A stretch of 34,553 nt of DNA from Erysipelotrichaceae bacterium (GTDB taxonomy: Bacteria > Bacillota_I > Bacilli_A > Erysipelotrichales > Erysipelotrichaceae), in NCBI GenBank assembly GCA_030536265.1, contig JAUNQJ010000004.1:1-34553 (forward strand). The letters run 5' to 3'. The notes below the pieces were generated by a model. That model made no database searches and had not been told where the DNA came from. It was given only the letters and a program-made list of their open reading frames with translations. Position 1 is the stretch's first letter; each line of letters begins with the position of its first letter. This document shows, piece after piece, positions 17,044 through 34,470 of this stretch. The translations under genes and the position numbers were made by a program.

Positions 17044-17071
17044 CATATTTGTATCGCAATTGTGATACAAT
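17041..17071 (+). promoter_or_regulatory. Promoter and inverted-repeat operator of the toxin-antitoxin pair
   Basis: TTGCAT (17041-17046) and TACAAT (17066-17071) form a promoter with a 19-base spacer. GTATCGCAATTGTGATAC (17051-17068) is an 18-bp inverted repeat with one mismatched pair, filling the spacer and touching the -10. This is where ribbon-helix-helix antitoxins usually bind to repress their own operon. Confidence 0.6.
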
Positions 17072-17087
17072 ATATTTAGGTATAAAT

Positions 17088-17408
17088 ATGCAAAAAACAG
17101 AGACAGTACATACAAGGGTTACGCCCGCTATTAAGAAAAAAGCCGATAAACTATTTGAATCTATTGGTTTAACAACAAGCCAAGCAATTATGCTTTTTTT
17201 AACAGCATCAGTAAATTGTAATGGCTTGCCATTTGAACTGAGGCTAAATAGAAATGAAGAAAATGATTTTGAATTTGCTAAAGGTATAGCGACAGTAGAT
17301 GGAGTTAATCCTTCTAAAGAAGCTGAAAGAATAATGAAATTATATTCAAAAGGTGAAATAGATTATGAAACGGCTCAGTTTGCTATAGAAAGGATTTATG
17401 TTAAATAA
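17088..17408 (+). CDS. RelB/DinJ-family antitoxin
   Basis: A 106-residue antitoxin. The N-terminal ribbon-helix-helix segment (TVHTRVTPAIKKKADKLFES and the following GLTTSQAIMLFL) is typical of RelB/DinJ and binds DNA as a dimer. The C-terminal half, rich in Glu, Lys and Tyr, would wrap the toxin. DinJ normally pairs with the RNase YafQ, but here the next gene encodes a Fic protein and overlaps this stop codon (TAATG). The ATG at 17088 is preferred: the open frame before it runs through the operator. The ribosome site is weak (TTTAGG). An obvious Fic-inhibitory (S/T)xxxE(G/N) motif was not found in this protein. Confidence 0.85.
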   Translation: MQKTETVHTRVTPAIKKKADKLFESIGLTTSQAIMLFLTASVNCNGLPFELRLNRNEENDFEFAKGIATVDGVNPSKEAERIMKLYSKGEIDYETAQFAIERIYVK

Positions 17409-18121
17409 TGAAAGATCCTTATTTGTACGAAGGAACGTCAGTTCTAATTAACAATTTAGATATTAGGAATAGTGACGAACTAGATAAAGCCGAAACGGAT
17501 TTTGTTATTATAGCTATCGAGAAATTAAAGAAAAGTAATTTTTGCTTTGAATCAATATATGATGGTTTATATATTCACTCAGAATTATTTTCAAAATTAT
17601 ACAAATGGGCAGGAAAGATAAGAACAGTGAATATATATAAAAAAGAAGAAATATTAGATGGAAAATCTATTGATTATGTATTTGCTTCGTATATTAACAA
17701 TGAGTTAGATGCGTTAGATAAAGAATTTAAACAAGTCAATTGGGATATATTGAATAATAAAGAAAAAATAGAAAAGATTAGTTATTTTGTATCAGAGTTT
17801 TGGCATATTCATCCTTTTAGAGAAGGAAATACAAGAACTTCTGCTATGATGTTATATTTTTTAATAAAGAAAGCAAAAATGAATATTAATTCAGAGTTTC
17901 TGTCAAAGAATTCTAAATATTTTCGTAATGCTTTAGTTTTATCTTCTACTTATAATAAAACGAAAAGCCGTTACCTATTTGATATAATTTCTGATTGCAC
18001 GACTATAAAAAATATAAACACAAATAGATATGAAACTATTGAAGGTGTAGAAGTAAGAAAATATGAATATACTACTCATACTATTGAAAAAATAGACACA
18101 ATTGCAAAACCTTCAAAATAG
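17408..18121 (+). CDS. Fic-domain protein (probable AMPylating toxin)
   Basis: A 237-residue Fic protein. Fic enzymes usually transfer AMP from ATP to a hydroxyl of a target protein. The N-terminal YEGTSVLINNLDIRNSDELD is the usual start of short bacterial Fic toxins, and the active-site loop is HPFREGNTR (H135-R143), with the catalytic His, the acidic metal ligand and the Arg present. The usual second glycine (GNGR) is Thr. The class II inhibitory motif is not visible at the N-terminus, so inhibition probably depends on the partner. The start codon overlaps the antitoxin stop, giving translational coupling. Targets are unknown. Confidence 0.88.
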   Translation: MKDPYLYEGTSVLINNLDIRNSDELDKAETDFVIIAIEKLKKSNFCFESIYDGLYIHSELFSKLYKWAGKIRTVNIYKKEEILDGKSIDYVFASYINNELDALDKEFKQVNWDILNNKEKIEKISYFVSEFWHIHPFREGNTRTSAMMLYFLIKKAKMNINSEFLSKNSKYFRNALVLSSTYNKTKSRYLFDIISDCTTIKNINTNRYETIEGVEVRKYEYTTHTIEKIDTIAKPSK

Positions 18122-28017: not shown

Positions 28018-29250
28018 ATGAAATACAATAAAGCCTTCAAATATAGAATCTATCCAAGTGATTCTCAAGTAATACTAATTGAGAAGACTTTTGGATGTAC
28101 AAGATTCATCTATAATAAGATGCTTAATGATAAGATAACTTATTATGAAAAGAATAAGAAATCATTACATATTACACCAGCATCTTATAAGAAAGAATAT
28201 GTTTGGCTAAAAGAAGTAGATTCTCTAGCTTTAACTAATACACAACTTCAATTAGATAAAGCTTATAAAGCATTCTTTAGTAAGAATAATAGATTTCCTA
28301 AATATAAGTCTAAACATAATAAGAAGAAATCTTATACAACCAATATGGTTAATGGAAACATTAAGATAGATTACAAGTCTAAATCTATTACATTACCAAA
28401 ATTAGGTTCTATTAAATGTAAATATCATAGATACATTCCAAATGACTATATGGTTAAATCAGTTACAGTATCTAAATCACCTACAAATAAGTATTATGTA
28501 TCAATATTAACTGAATATGAAAACGATATTCCATATAGAATACTAGATTCTAATAAATCTATAGGACTAGATTATTCATCTTCATCTTTATATGTGGATA
28601 GTAATGGAAATAGTATTAATATGCCTCATTACTATAGATTATTAGAAGAAAGACTAGCTAAAGAGAATAGAAAACTATCTCATATGAAACTGCATTCTAA
28701 TAACTGGTTTAGGCAACAAAATAAAATAAATAAAATACATGAAAGAATAGCTAACCAACGTAAAGATTATTTACATAAATTAAGTACTAAATTAGTAAAC
28801 AGCTATGACTATATAGCCTTAGAAGATATAAACCTTAAAAACATAAGCCAATCATTACATCTTGGAAAATCAACAGATGATAATGGTTTTGGGATGTTTA
28901 GAGATTTCTTGTCTTATAAAGCAGAATTAAATGGTACAAAGATTATCAAAGTTGATAAGTTTTATCCATCTAGTAAACAATGCCATATCTGTAACTATAA
29001 GAAGGTAGATCTAACTCTAAAGGATAGATCTTGGACTTGTCCAATATGTAATACAACACATAATAGAGACGAAAATGCAGCTATTAACATACTAAAAGAA
29101 GGATTAAGACTATATAATAATAACTGTCTTAGTGATAATTCTATTATCTATAACACTAATAACCCTTGGGCTAAGGGGGATAGCTCGTTGATACTGAACT
29201 CATTAGAGTTCTTGAGCGAGAAGCGCCCACTTCAAACTAGCAATAGCTAG
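28018..29250 (+). CDS. tnpB: TnpB RNA-guided nuclease (IS200/IS605 OrfB)
   Basis: A 410-residue TnpB, the family from which Cas12 arose; characterised members cut DNA guided by an RNA from the element's right end. The N-terminus KAFKYRIYPSDSQVILIEKT is typical, followed by the helix-turn-helix-like region. The RuvC residues are all visible: D185 in GLDYSS, E269 in ALEDINL and D351 in HNRDENAAINI. The zinc finger CHIC-CPIC lies between about 322 and 342. The reading frame is full length, so the nuclease may be active. There is no Shine-Dalgarno of note. The last 80 bases overlap the predicted guide RNA. Confidence 0.95.
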   Translation: MKYNKAFKYRIYPSDSQVILIEKTFGCTRFIYNKMLNDKITYYEKNKKSLHITPASYKKEYVWLKEVDSLALTNTQLQLDKAYKAFFSKNNRFPKYKSKHNKKKSYTTNMVNGNIKIDYKSKSITLPKLGSIKCKYHRYIPNDYMVKSVTVSKSPTNKYYVSILTEYENDIPYRILDSNKSIGLDYSSSSLYVDSNGNSINMPHYYRLLEERLAKENRKLSHMKLHSNNWFRQQNKINKIHERIANQRKDYLHKLSTKLVNSYDYIALEDINLKNISQSLHLGKSTDDNGFGMFRDFLSYKAELNGTKIIKVDKFYPSSKQCHICNYKKVDLTLKDRSWTCPICNTTHNRDENAAINILKEGLRLYNNNCLSDNSIIYNTNNPWAKGDSSLILNSLEFLSEKRPLQTSNS

Positions 29251-30815: not shown

Positions 30816-31385
30816 TTACAATAATATTGATAAATAATTAAAAATAATTTTATCTATACTAAACACTTTAGCATACTTAAATAATAAATCAATATTTTTG
30901 TCTTTTCTTTTTAAATATTTTTTTAATGCATTACTTATTTCAATAACTTCAAAGTTATTTCTGTTTCTAATCAAATCACAAATAGTCCTTTCAAGATTAT
31001 ACATATATATTTCATTTCCAAAATTATCAATTACTTTTGTTTTTCCAATATCTAATAAGTTATTATTAACATAATAAATTTTATAACCTGCTTTTTTCAA
31101 TTTGCTTGCATTGTATCCAGAATTAATTGTGCAAGTAGGTTTTAATGGTTCTCTATCAGTTAATCCAAAATAATACAAAGCTTCATCATGAGAGGCAACA
31201 GCTCTAGGGCAACGCATCTTAAGTACTAACAAAGGGTCTACAAACGTGTCTTTGCTTGCATATATGCCATGAGATATTTTTTCATACTCATTCTCTTTTA
31301 TAAAATCATAGAATTCTTTTTTTGAATAACCTTTAATTCTTGATTCTTTTGTTGTTATGATTTCTTTGTTTAATCCTTTTTTCAT
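30816..31385 (-). CDS. AbiEi-type antitoxin/regulator, orphan
   Basis: A 189-residue protein resembling AbiEi antitoxins of type IV toxin-antitoxin (abortive infection) systems: an N-terminal winged helix region (YSKKEFYDFIKENEYEKISH and then GIYAS), the middle PRAVASHDEALYYFGLTDRE, and YMYNLERTICDLIRNRNNFE. It appears intact at both ends. AbiEi normally represses the operon and counters AbiEii, a nucleotidyltransferase encoded immediately downstream; here the downstream side ends in repeats and a terminator with no AbiEii. The gene reads away from a 17-bp inverted repeat next to its start, the probable autoregulatory operator. Confidence 0.85.
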   Translation of the reverse strand: MKKGLNKEIITTKESRIKGYSKKEFYDFIKENEYEKISHGIYASKDTFVDPLLVLKMRCPRAVASHDEALYYFGLTDREPLKPTCTINSGYNASKLKKAGYKIYYVNNNLLDIGKTKVIDNFGNEIYMYNLERTICDLIRNRNNFEVIEISNALKKYLKRKDKNIDLLFKYAKVFSIDKIIFNYLSILL

Positions 31386-31745: not shown

Positions 31746-32576
31746 ATGAAAAGAAGAATGATCATTATATCTTTATTGTTATTGATATCTATATCTATAA
31801 TTATTTTAATTAATAATAATGATTCAAATGATATTGAAATAAAAGATAAGAGTAACTTAGATAATAAACTAGAATTTATTAACGAAGAATACGCTAGTTA
31901 TAAATCAATTAACGATGATTATATAGGACAATTAGTATTTGATTCAGAAATAATAAACGAGCCTGTTTTACAGGCAAAAGGGTCTTTAAATGATAATGTT
32001 ATATTTGCTTATAATACTGGAGTTATAGTTAATGATTATAATAAAGGATGTGAAGGTGGTAGTTGTTCACTTAATGATGTTTATTTAAGAAAAGATATTA
32101 ATAACAATTTTGATATAGGTGGAACAGTATTTATGGATTATAGAAATTCATTATCTGATCAAAACATAATAATATATGGACACTTATATCCTAAAACAAT
32201 GGATCCAAATAAAGAATTAAAGTTTTCACCACTTGAATCATTATTAAATAAAGATAATTATGAAAATAATAAATATGTATCATTAAAACTTAAAGAAGAA
32301 ACAAAGAACTACCAAGTAGTATATGTATACTTGTTTAATTTAAGTAATGATGATTATGATAATCTTCAATACTTTAGGACAAACTATAATATAGACTTAA
32401 AAGGAAATATAGATGAAGGATATTATGATAGGTATATTAATAATCTTGAACAAGTAAAACTATATGATACAGGTATTAAACTAAATAATACTGATAATAC
32501 ATTAAAATTACAAACATGTTATGAAGAAGATGATAATATACTAGAAATTGTAGTATGTAAAGAGATAAGTAAGTAA
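31746..32576 (+). CDS. Class B sortase-like protein lacking the catalytic arginine
   Basis: A 276-residue sortase B-family protein with an N-terminal membrane anchor (residues 5-23). Family features are IGQLVFDSEIINEPVLQ, VYLRKDINNNFDIGGTVFMD, IIIYGHLYP with the catalytic His, and LKLQTC with the catalytic Cys. Sortase B enzymes need an Arg in the strand after the Cys (TCEDA...KRIVVV in S. aureus); here this strand reads LEIVVCKEI and no arginine follows the Cys. It may be a variant or inactive enzyme. There is no Shine-Dalgarno; TAAAAT ends eight bases before the ATG. No sorting-signal protein is seen in the window. Confidence 0.85.
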   Translation: MKRRMIIISLLLLISISIIILINNNDSNDIEIKDKSNLDNKLEFINEEYASYKSINDDYIGQLVFDSEIINEPVLQAKGSLNDNVIFAYNTGVIVNDYNKGCEGGSCSLNDVYLRKDINNNFDIGGTVFMDYRNSLSDQNIIIYGHLYPKTMDPNKELKFSPLESLLNKDNYENNKYVSLKLKEETKNYQVVYVYLFNLSNDDYDNLQYFRTNYNIDLKGNIDEGYYDRYINNLEQVKLYDTGIKLNNTDNTLKLQTCYEEDDNILEIVVCKEISK

Positions 32577-32603
32577 AAGAAGCCTGTTTAAGGCTTCTTT
32601 TTA
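32577..32603 (+). terminator. Terminator after the sortase-like gene
   Basis: AAGAAGCCT (32577-32585) pairs with AGGCTTCTT (32591-32599), followed by TTT. Confidence 0.88.
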
Positions 32604-32629
32604 CTCTTTAAAAGTAATAATTAAAAGGC

Positions 32630-32635
32630 TATAAT
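32630..32635 (+). promoter_or_regulatory. -10 box of the cystatin-Hint lipoprotein gene
   Basis: TATAAT lies 17 bases before the ATG, with TTTAAA (32607-32612) as a weak -35 at 17 bases and AAAGGA as ribosome site. Confidence 0.5.
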
Positions 32636-32652
32636 TATGTAAAGGATTAATT

Positions 32653-34470
32653 ATGAAAAAACTATTAACTATCTTATTAACAACATTTATGTTATTTACA
32701 CTAGTTGGCTGTAATACTAATAAAGAAGAACCAACTGTTTTAGATGAACCTACTATTCAAGAAGAAACAAAAGAAGAAGAGGATACTATTTTAGGTGGCT
32801 TTACTGAAGCTGAAGATAAGAGTTTAAATGATGAATTGATAGAAATCTTCAATAAAGCTGTAGATGGATTATTAGGTGCTAAATATGAACCAGTAGAATT
32901 AGTGGCAACACAAGTTGTAGCTGGTACAAACTATAAATTCTTGGCAAATGGCACTAAAACTACTAATCCAGTAATTAAAGGCACATACTACATTATTATA
33001 TATAAAGATTTGAATGGTAATGTAGAACTAAAAGACATAGAAGTAATAGAAGAAAATGAAGTTGATTATACGGGAGTAAAATTTTGGGTTGTTGTATATG
33101 ATCAATTTGATAATGAAATAAGCAGGACTACAGCTGTATATGGTTCAACTATAAAAGATCCAGATGGAAACGATGTGATTGTAGATCATAACAAGTATTT
33201 TCATACTGTAGTTGATTATCATTCTGATGATAAGAAAGATAGTTCATCCCCATCTCCATCTCCATCCCCAACTCCAACTCCAACGCCAACATGCAGTAAT
33301 ATTGGTCAACCTCTATATTATATATATGCAGAAGATGGAAATAAATTTTTAACTTGCTGTTACGAGTATTCACAAGATAAATATTCTTTTGATTCGAGCG
33401 TTATGTTTTCAAAAAGCGATTGTAGTGGTTTACAAGTAGGCGATTGGTTCCACTATGATGTTGCTTTTGGCAATGTGTTAGGAAAATGTGTAGGTGGTGG
33501 TGATGCAGCGGTATTACCTACTTTTCATACTATAACATTCGAAAAAAATGGCGTTGAGACAACAAGCTTCCCATCTAATAGAAAGACAATAGATAACATG
33601 TTGGTAACAACTCCGCAAGTGGTTGCAACTGCAGACGGACACGAATTTCTAGGCTGGTATAAAGAGGCTTCTTGCGAAAATCAATGGAATTTTTTAACCG
33701 ATAAACCCACTAGTGATATAACATTGTATGCAAATTGGAATCCACCAGCATGTTTAGCTGCAGGAACTATGATCACCATGGCCGATGGTTCAAGAAAGCC
33801 AGTAGAAACACTTCAAGAAGGTGATGATATTAGAATCTTTGATCATAATACTGGTAAATTATCACATGCAAAGATAATGGATTATTGGCAATATGAAGAA
33901 CCTGTAACTGGCTTAATGACATTACATTTCACAAATGATATTGATGTAAATATTGTTACTGCTCATAGTTTCTATAACAAACAAGAAAATAAGTATATTA
34001 CTATTAATCGCGAAAATATTAATGATTATATAGGACAACAATTCTATAATGCTGATAATGACTCGTGGGAAACATTATTAGGCGTTAACTATTCTAGTAA
34101 ACCAGTAGACACATTCTTTATTGCGACAGAAGATCAATTCGATTGTATTGCAGAAGGCATGTTAACGATGGAAGATGGAATATATACATTAGTTTCAAAT
34201 ATTTTCGATTATGATTCAAATATGAAAGTTAATGTTGTTAAGAAGTATATAGATATCATTAAATACGGAGTATTTACACCTGAAGATATACCTGCTATTA
34301 AAGAAAATGCAATTAAAGCATATAAATTGCAATATATCAAAGTAGCAATAGGCAAAGGCATTATAACTGAAGATATATGGAATATTATGGTAAAAGAAAT
34401 GATTTCGTATGAATCAGATAATGTTAATGAAGAATATATCCCGAGTGAACAAAAGCATTCAGCTAAATAA
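32653..34470 (+). CDS. Lipoprotein with cystatin-like, InlB-repeat and Hint domains
   Basis: A 605-residue surface lipoprotein. The signal peptide ends in LVGC (C20). Residues 46-135 look like a cystatin: LGGFTEAEDKSLNDELIEIF, then QVVAGTNY at 87-94, the QxVxG papain-inhibitory loop, preceded by the conserved Gly pair. A Ser/Thr-Pro linker spans about 196-213, followed by a cysteine-rich segment. Residues 290-365 form an InlB-type repeat (HEFLGWYKEA to ITLYANW). At C367 a Hint (hedgehog/intein) domain starts: CLAAGTMITMADGSRKPVE, with VTAHSFY (H438) as the probable block B. The C-terminal Asn of inteins is missing, so splicing is unlikely; cleavage before C367 is possible. About 85 helical residues end the protein. 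Confidence 0.82.
   Translation: MKKLLTILLTTFMLFTLVGCNTNKEEPTVLDEPTIQEETKEEEDTILGGFTEAEDKSLNDELIEIFNKAVDGLLGAKYEPVELVATQVVAGTNYKFLANGTKTTNPVIKGTYYIIIYKDLNGNVELKDIEVIEENEVDYTGVKFWVVVYDQFDNEISRTTAVYGSTIKDPDGNDVIVDHNKYFHTVVDYHSDDKKDSSSPSPSPSPTPTPTPTCSNIGQPLYYIYAEDGNKFLTCCYEYSQDKYSFDSSVMFSKSDCSGLQVGDWFHYDVAFGNVLGKCVGGGDAAVLPTFHTITFEKNGVETTSFPSNRKTIDNMLVTTPQVVATADGHEFLGWYKEASCENQWNFLTDKPTSDITLYANWNPPACLAAGTMITMADGSRKPVETLQEGDDIRIFDHNTGKLSHAKIMDYWQYEEPVTGLMTLHFTNDIDVNIVTAHSFYNKQENKYITINRENINDYIGQQFYNADNDSWETLLGVNYSSKPVDTFFIATEDQFDCIAEGMLTMEDGIYTLVSNIFDYDSNMKVNVVKKYIDIIKYGVFTPEDIPAIKENAIKAYKLQYIKVAIGKGIITEDIWNIMVKEMISYESDNVNEEYIPSEQKHSAK

Follow-up and report, generated by a model that had tools for sequence, protein, structure and literature searches.

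Cystatins are inhibitors of papain-like proteases and are best known from animals and plants. Bacterial stefins and cystatins, those of Clostridia included, were described by Kordis and Turk in 2009 (PMC2784779), who regarded them as rare and patchily distributed and suggested that they act on proteases of the host; multi-domain copies and one fusion were already on record. Among Hint systems, hedgehog passes its signal to cholesterol (PMC7765530), and B-type BIL domains lack only the C-terminal intein motif (Amitai 2003, as reviewed in PMC7765530). The BIL2 domain of the Tetrahymena BUBL1 locus joins its N-terminal partner, a ubiquitin-like domain, to lysines in a reaction that needs no ATP (PMC8616854).

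In the window, which is the whole stretch of 34,553 nucleotides analysed in this paper (contig JAUNQJ010000004.1 of an Erysipelotrichaceae bacterium), one gene joins a cystatin to a Hint domain in a single lipoprotein. The cystatin is of a known kind and the Hint fold belongs to a known superfamily. The pairing of the two, and the unit formed by the Hint domain and the helical tail behind it, are undescribed as far as the tools used here reach; the literature searched, mainly open-access, gave no report of either.

The locus and its gene

The contig is one of 96 in a 953-kb MAG that is 79% complete, and it ends only 83 bases beyond the cystatin-Hint gene. The features of the locus are collected in Table 1. 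The product had been called a lipoprotein in the initial annotation, and a signal peptide with an LVGC end and lipidation at Cys20 agrees with this. Its helical tail, List_Bact repeat and Cys-rich segment are absent from that annotation. Promoter-like sites are no more frequent in the region than in shuffled sequence; judged by its consensus match, the site upstream suggests that the gene may have its own promoter. The sortase-like gene is apparently a separate transcription unit and is at most tentatively linked to the lipoprotein.

Table 1. Features of the cystatin-Hint locus (coordinates in the window; residues numbered in the lipoprotein)
Feature	Coordinates	Strand	Basis or remark
Sortase-like protein, 276 aa	31746..32576	+	Pfam Sortase E 3e-4, below cut-off
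Bidirectional terminator-like hairpin	32575..32601	.	Between the upstream sortase-like gene and the cystatin-Hint gene
Promoter-like site TTTAAA-17-TATAAT	32607..32635	+	Consensus match only
Cystatin-Hint lipoprotein gene	32653..34470	+	605 aa, ATG start, intact ORF
Lipoprotein signal peptide (ends in LVGC; Cys20 as lipidation site)	32653..32712	+	Sequence
Cystatin (stefin-like) domain, residues 46-135	32788..33057	+	Profile against PDB, AF2 model, VIA Z, tree
N-terminal Gly-Gly of cystatin trunk, G48-G49	32794..32799	+	Sequence, 36-domain alignment
First hairpin QVVAGTNY, residues 87-94	32911..32934	+	Sequence, family profile, motif counts
DLNGN turn, residues 119-123	33007..33021	+	Between last two strands of model; D-L-x-G-N family-conserved
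Segment 136-212, ends in Ser/Thr-Pro linker	33058..33288	+	Nothing convincing matched among 296 genomes of the class
Cys-rich segment 214-288, five Cys	33292..33516	+	No relatives found in 296 genomes of the class
Listeria-Bacteroides repeat (List_Bact, Flg_new / InlB B-type), 292-360	33526..33732	+	Pfam PF09479 E 3.7e-14
Hint domain, residues 367-510; Cys1 = C367, block-B His = H438	33751..34182	+	Sequence profile, model, fold search, alignment
Conserved helical C-tail, residues 511-589 (about 80 residues)	34183..34419	+	Accompanies Hint in all full-length copies

Several other genes of the window were observed in passing. RelB/DinJ-like and Fic/DOC-like genes adjoin at 17049-18121 and look by eye like a toxin-antitoxin pair. 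An IS605-family TnpB (OrfB, with a Cas12f1-like TNB domain) lies at 28018-29250, and a protein resembling by eye an AbiEi-type antitoxin is encoded at 30816-31385 on the minus strand, with no Pfam match at E 0.001. In a separate locus (L203), a homologue of the sortase-like protein is located 4 kb from a single-domain stefin lipoprotein.

The cystatin domain

A glycine pair, a helix and QVVAGTNY had been pointed out earlier in the order typical of cystatins, and this order is confirmed, with Gly-Gly at residues 48-49, the modelled helix at about 60-70 and QVVAGTNY at 87-94. Two motifs of the cystatin superfamily, the Q-x-V-x-G first hairpin and the N-terminal Gly, are both present in the domain. 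In the AF2 model of residues 46-135 (pLDDT 88.6), the helix is followed by four strands, in agreement with the superfamily fold of one helix wrapped by a four- or five-stranded beta sheet. According to sequence and model, the DLNGN turn is probably the second inhibitory hairpin.

A profile (A1) made from an alignment of 36 domains of cystatin relatives was searched against the PDB sequences, and all 16 distinct sequences found at E<1 were cystatins (best E 0.011). The Pfam Cystatin model gave the window domain 14.0 bits (E 0.061), less than its cut-off of 22.2 bits, and the best scorer among family members reached E 9e-4; this cut-off is a gauge of sequence similarity and does not define the superfamily. 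Cystatins also ranked first when the model was searched with Foldseek (best E 3.7e-3). With VIA-align, a Z of 9.2 was obtained for Dictyostelium cystatin A2, potato multicystatin and tarocystatin (papain complex), and 8.5 for stefin B (papain complex) and ricistatin (cathepsin V complex); from about Z 8 downward, monellin and engineered cystatin-scaffold binders also match, because the fold is shared. The cystatin fold that had been proposed for this region is thus borne out by prediction and profile, and residues 46-135 are, on both counts, a real, stefin-like cystatin.

Type 1 cystatins, or stefins, are taken here as domains of about 100 residues with no disulphides and a second hairpin without Pro-Trp. 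The 90-residue length, the absence of Cys between residues 20 and 214 and the DLNGN at the second hairpin fit this type. Lack of a signal peptide, another stefin trait, does not apply to a lipoprotein with a signal and Cys20, and for this reason the domain is called stefin-like only. Secreted type 1 cystatins do exist, for example 6i1m.

The Hint domain

A Hint domain had been proposed for residues 367-520. The start at C367 and the horseshoe fold were recovered, and the core was found to end near residue 510 instead of 520, so that residues 367-510 are, by sequence and model, a Hint domain. A sub-threshold Pfam Hint_2 match begins at C367. The best PDB sequence match is 6y75 (BIL2, Tetrahymena BUBL1 locus; E 2.4e-11), and BIL2 is first in Foldseek as well (E 1.3e-10). 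In the model of Hint and tail (pLDDT 90.3, pTM 0.85), roughly the first 145 residues form the Hint fold, with the helical tail after them. The horseshoe fold matches inteins, BIL and hedgehog at Z 14-20 in VIA-align, including BIL2 at Z 19.9 (1.9 A over 138 residues), a C. thermocellum BIL at Z 18.1 and hedgehog 1at0 at Z 17.1.

The absence of the terminal Asn, also noted in the initial annotation, was confirmed in the sequence: nothing like the C-terminal His-Asn of inteins and A-type BIL domains follows the Hint in the window protein or in its aligned relatives. The window Hint cannot splice, because the terminal Asn is missing. BIL2 (6y75, 6tmm) is the closest solved structure by both sequence and fold, and Cys1 and the block-B His are common to the two; however, BIL2 has a C-terminal Asn (N143) and then a ubiquitin-like domain, whereas the window Hint has neither and carries the helical tail instead. 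With the hedgehog Hog domain it shares the Hint fold, the C-terminal position, the lack of a terminal Asn and an extra region after the Hint core. In Hog this region recognizes sterols, whereas the conserved tail in its place here is without sequence match to solved structures or Pfam; the N-terminal partners are bacterial, and the block-B Thr is missing. As judged from the review PMC7765530, the window Hint resembles B-type BIL domains, which are likewise Hint domains that occur in variable bacterial proteins and lack the C-terminal motif. In contrast to these, it also lacks the block-B Thr and has behind it a conserved non-toxin tail, with which the protein ends or nearly ends.

In the structural alignment, Cys1 is kept in 23/23 members and the block-B His in 22/23. 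None of the 23 retains the block-B Thr seen in inteins and hedgehog; catalysis is possibly weak or lost because of this absence, which is the chief ground for doubting the chemistry. Moreover, the conserved block-F Asn is replaced by Asp497 in the window protein, and the residue preceding Cys1 is variable. These changes agree with a serious rival explanation, in which the Hint module would have no catalytic activity and act solely as a folded distal cap or binding domain, the tethered cystatin being the working part. An invariant Cys1 and an almost invariant block-B His are nevertheless hard to explain without selection on cleavage chemistry, given that the aligned module members are only 22-33% identical to the window protein. 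Silence of the module is considered unlikely, although it has to be taken seriously.

The Hint-plus-tail module

The tail is joined to this type of Hint in all 26 full-length copies. In these copies the pair stands at or near the C-terminus of the protein, and 76 residues lie beyond it in one locus (L140). Almost the full length of residues 363-605 can be aligned with two proteins of the same genus, a 332-aa frame (L008) and the end of a 1,574-aa protein (L009). The tail has no significant match among PDB sequences or in Pfam; the list from the fold search covered the Hint part only. A toxin domain after the Hint, in the style of polymorphic toxins, was considered and rejected, since the tail is conserved and none of the toxin families matched it.

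When 392 genomes drawn from the phylum were searched with a profile, the module came up in 20, among them the genome of the window; a few of these 20 are short or generic Hint matches. Within the order of the window, the module is confined to the genus (three genomes, and a fourth with a short match). Among 398 genomes from the phylum of a Lachnospiraceae locus, no full Hint-plus-tail was found; the matches were short and limited to roughly the first 90 positions. From these alignments, Hint and tail form a single module, with which about 20 other surface proteins of Bacilli end or nearly end. The N-termini of 16 of the 20 other host proteins exceed a simple hydrophobicity threshold; among the remaining four, L174, L176 and L190 have starts that are less hydrophobic or unclear and L178 is cut by a contig end. 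Among the 16, a 1574-aa protein of a Candidatus Colivicinus equi MAG (L191; G004:C50:36300-42500) combines a type IV prepilin-like leader with Hint-plus-tail at the C-terminus, and no LPxTG was found near the C-terminus of the 20 other hosts. Counting the window lipoprotein, the module proteins use three kinds of N-terminal signal for secretion or anchoring but share a single kind of C-terminal end. The module, which is outside any curated family searched, lies at the far end of anchored surface proteins.

Near the Hint-plus-tail genes of two genomes (G472 and G437), clusters of secreted proteins with similar N-terminal signals were observed (L194 and L195). They adjoin genes that resemble serine recombinases by eye, which suggests rearranging surface-protein loci.

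Probable origin of the fusion

The architecture had been described as unusual, and this held up. No relative of the full-length architecture was found in 101 related genomes or in a first scan of the genome contigs, and among about 100 cystatin genes the pairing with Hint is seen only in this one incomplete MAG. At 97 retrieved loci (80 genome loci and 17 viral loci), which were checked by ORF length and domain positions and, for the ten longest or oddest, by Pfam, no other cystatin ORF contains a Hint.

A tree of cystatin domains places the window copy inside a clade with L007, L010, L011 and L013 (support 99/96), and L007 is the closest (65% identity over 88 columns). Each of these four is a stand-alone lipoprotein and ends with the domain, at the point where the extra segment of the window protein begins. 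No gene order is shared with the single-domain stefin loci. The window protein has one clear copy of the internalin B-type (List_Bact, Flg_new) repeat; unlike in internalins, the repeat is a spacer in a lipoprotein, and no other internalin domain was found. Its codon usage is atypical (score 0.10 versus 0.17-0.44 in window genes; GC3 0.29 versus 0.12-0.25), and that of the cystatin and Hint parts is typical of window genes. The fusion probably arose when a single-domain stefin lipoprotein of the L007 kind gained, in frame, the C-terminal end of a repeat-rich surface protein, that is, the Flg_new repeat, the Hint and the helical tail. An origin from phages or plasmids was set aside, with no Hint or cystatin match in annotated phages and no match in plasmids, where only the Hint was searched.

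An assembly error, in which a stefin gene was joined to the end of an unrelated surface-protein gene, could also produce such a protein. The single fragmented MAG, the nearness of the contig end, the middle segment without relatives and the atypical codon usage of the repeat all fit an artefact. Set against them are an uninterrupted frame of 605 codons, which a chance join would seldom leave intact, and the typical codon usage of both cystatin and Hint. An assembly error is possible but less likely than a true fusion, and its chance appears slim.

Proposed mechanism

The best combined explanation, to which a probability of roughly one half is given, is that of a tethered cystatin inhibitor of fusion origin, whose Hint would form a thioester and then be shed or transferred. 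In this explanation, the lipid on Cys20 would hold the secreted lipoprotein at the outer face of the membrane, where one stefin-type cystatin would be displayed. Using H438, the Hint would convert the peptide bond preceding C367 into a thioester. Resolution by water would shed the Hint and tail, and resolution by an outside nucleophile would join the anchored cystatin body to that nucleophile. The tail, which is placed like the adduct-recognition region of hedgehog, may choose the nucleophile. The domains with their folds, the anatomy of the protein, its family context and its closest relatives are computational results. Protease inhibition by the tethered cystatin, the thioester reaction and any partner to which the body may become attached we infer; for the chemistry, BIL2 provides a precedent.

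A different outcome had been proposed at first, namely that hedgehog-like cleavage before C367 frees a soluble cystatin. The Hint fold and Cys1 are indeed present; the proposal fails on topology, as the cystatin is situated between the lipidated Cys20 and the C-terminal Hint. With the lipid at the N-terminal end, a cut before C367 would remove the Hint and tail and leave the cystatin on the membrane, so that a second protease would be needed for its release. An N-terminal anchor is also the rule among the module hosts. Release of the cystatin by self-cleavage is therefore highly improbable, and of the earlier reading as a whole, the cystatin, the Hint, the lipoprotein signal and the missing Asn stand without it.

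By analogy with BIL2, the Hint and C-tail could even be a new type of surface-display conjugation module, borne at the far end of N-terminally anchored surface proteins of gut Bacilli, that joins the C-terminus of the anchored protein to an external amine or hydroxyl. This specific form is rather doubtful. If it were true, the tethered cystatin would be covalently joined to a host, protozoal or neighbour molecule. If active at all, the module would give bacteria an equivalent of hedgehog-type self-processing or of the intein-like domains that form isopeptide bonds.

Cystatins of gut bacteria and the target of inhibition

Relatives of residues 40-135 are abundant in genomes of the same genus, where they occur as lipoproteins with one copy (frames of 116-157 aa), two tandem copies, or two behind an extra N-terminal region. 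Of 155 family cystatin domains, 153 keep Q-x-x-x-G and 143 keep the N-terminal Gly motif. In GTDB genomes (257 billion bases), 246 of 274 stretches matching the motif ATQ[VLI]V[SAN]GTN encode relatives. Their taxonomic spread, as read from the 80 retrieved of these 246 loci, includes gut and rumen Erysipelotrichaceae and Solobacterium-like bacteria, Lachnospiraceae, Oscillospiraceae, other Clostridia and Coriobacteria. Judged from such relatives, the window cystatin is ordinary for its group, since one-, two- or multi-domain lipoproteins are common in gut Erysipelotrichaceae.

The cystatin fold, the QVVAG-type hairpin, the patchy bacterial spread and, for several members, an origin from animal guts are shared with the bacterial stefins described before (PMC2784779). 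Unlike those stefins, the cystatins found here are secreted lipoproteins and very common in gut Erysipelotrichaceae, and the one in the window is fused to a Hint. Where the 2009 survey met cystatins in few bacterial genomes, they are here regular surface lipoproteins of gut Erysipelotrichaceae and neighbouring groups.

With regard to its target, the tethered cystatin would most likely block papain-family (C1) proteases from outside, such as those of the host, the diet, rumen protozoa or competitors, and a host- or competitor-facing role of the lipoprotein is plausible. Alternatively, the cystatin might restrain a cysteine protease of its own or a neighbouring bacterium instead of a eukaryotic one, and the clear C1 peptidases in about 10 of 36 genomes of the genus are in keeping with this. 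However, none was found in the window's own genome as far as it is complete, and across the 36 genomes strong C1 hits show no association with the cystatin (6/26 with it, 4/10 without; Fisher p 0.41). Pairing with an own C1 peptidase was rejected on these grounds, and a bacterial target in the wider sense seems unlikely, with some weight left to it.

Other arrangements of cystatin domains were also observed. Short stand-alone cystatin-like ORFs of 90-112 aa occur on contigs of a viral collection (L156-L167), which are possibly prophage or host DNA. On another contig of this collection (L155:2-4252), an open frame of at least 1417 aa has copper-amine-oxidase N-terminal and cadherin-like domains and a cystatin at its end (1334-1416). 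Two cystatin domains are followed by a lipocalin-like domain in L073:7824-8963 and L068:932-2053 (Lipocalin_4; over the Pfam cut-off in L073 only), and four cystatin domains stand in tandem in L090:7092-8606.
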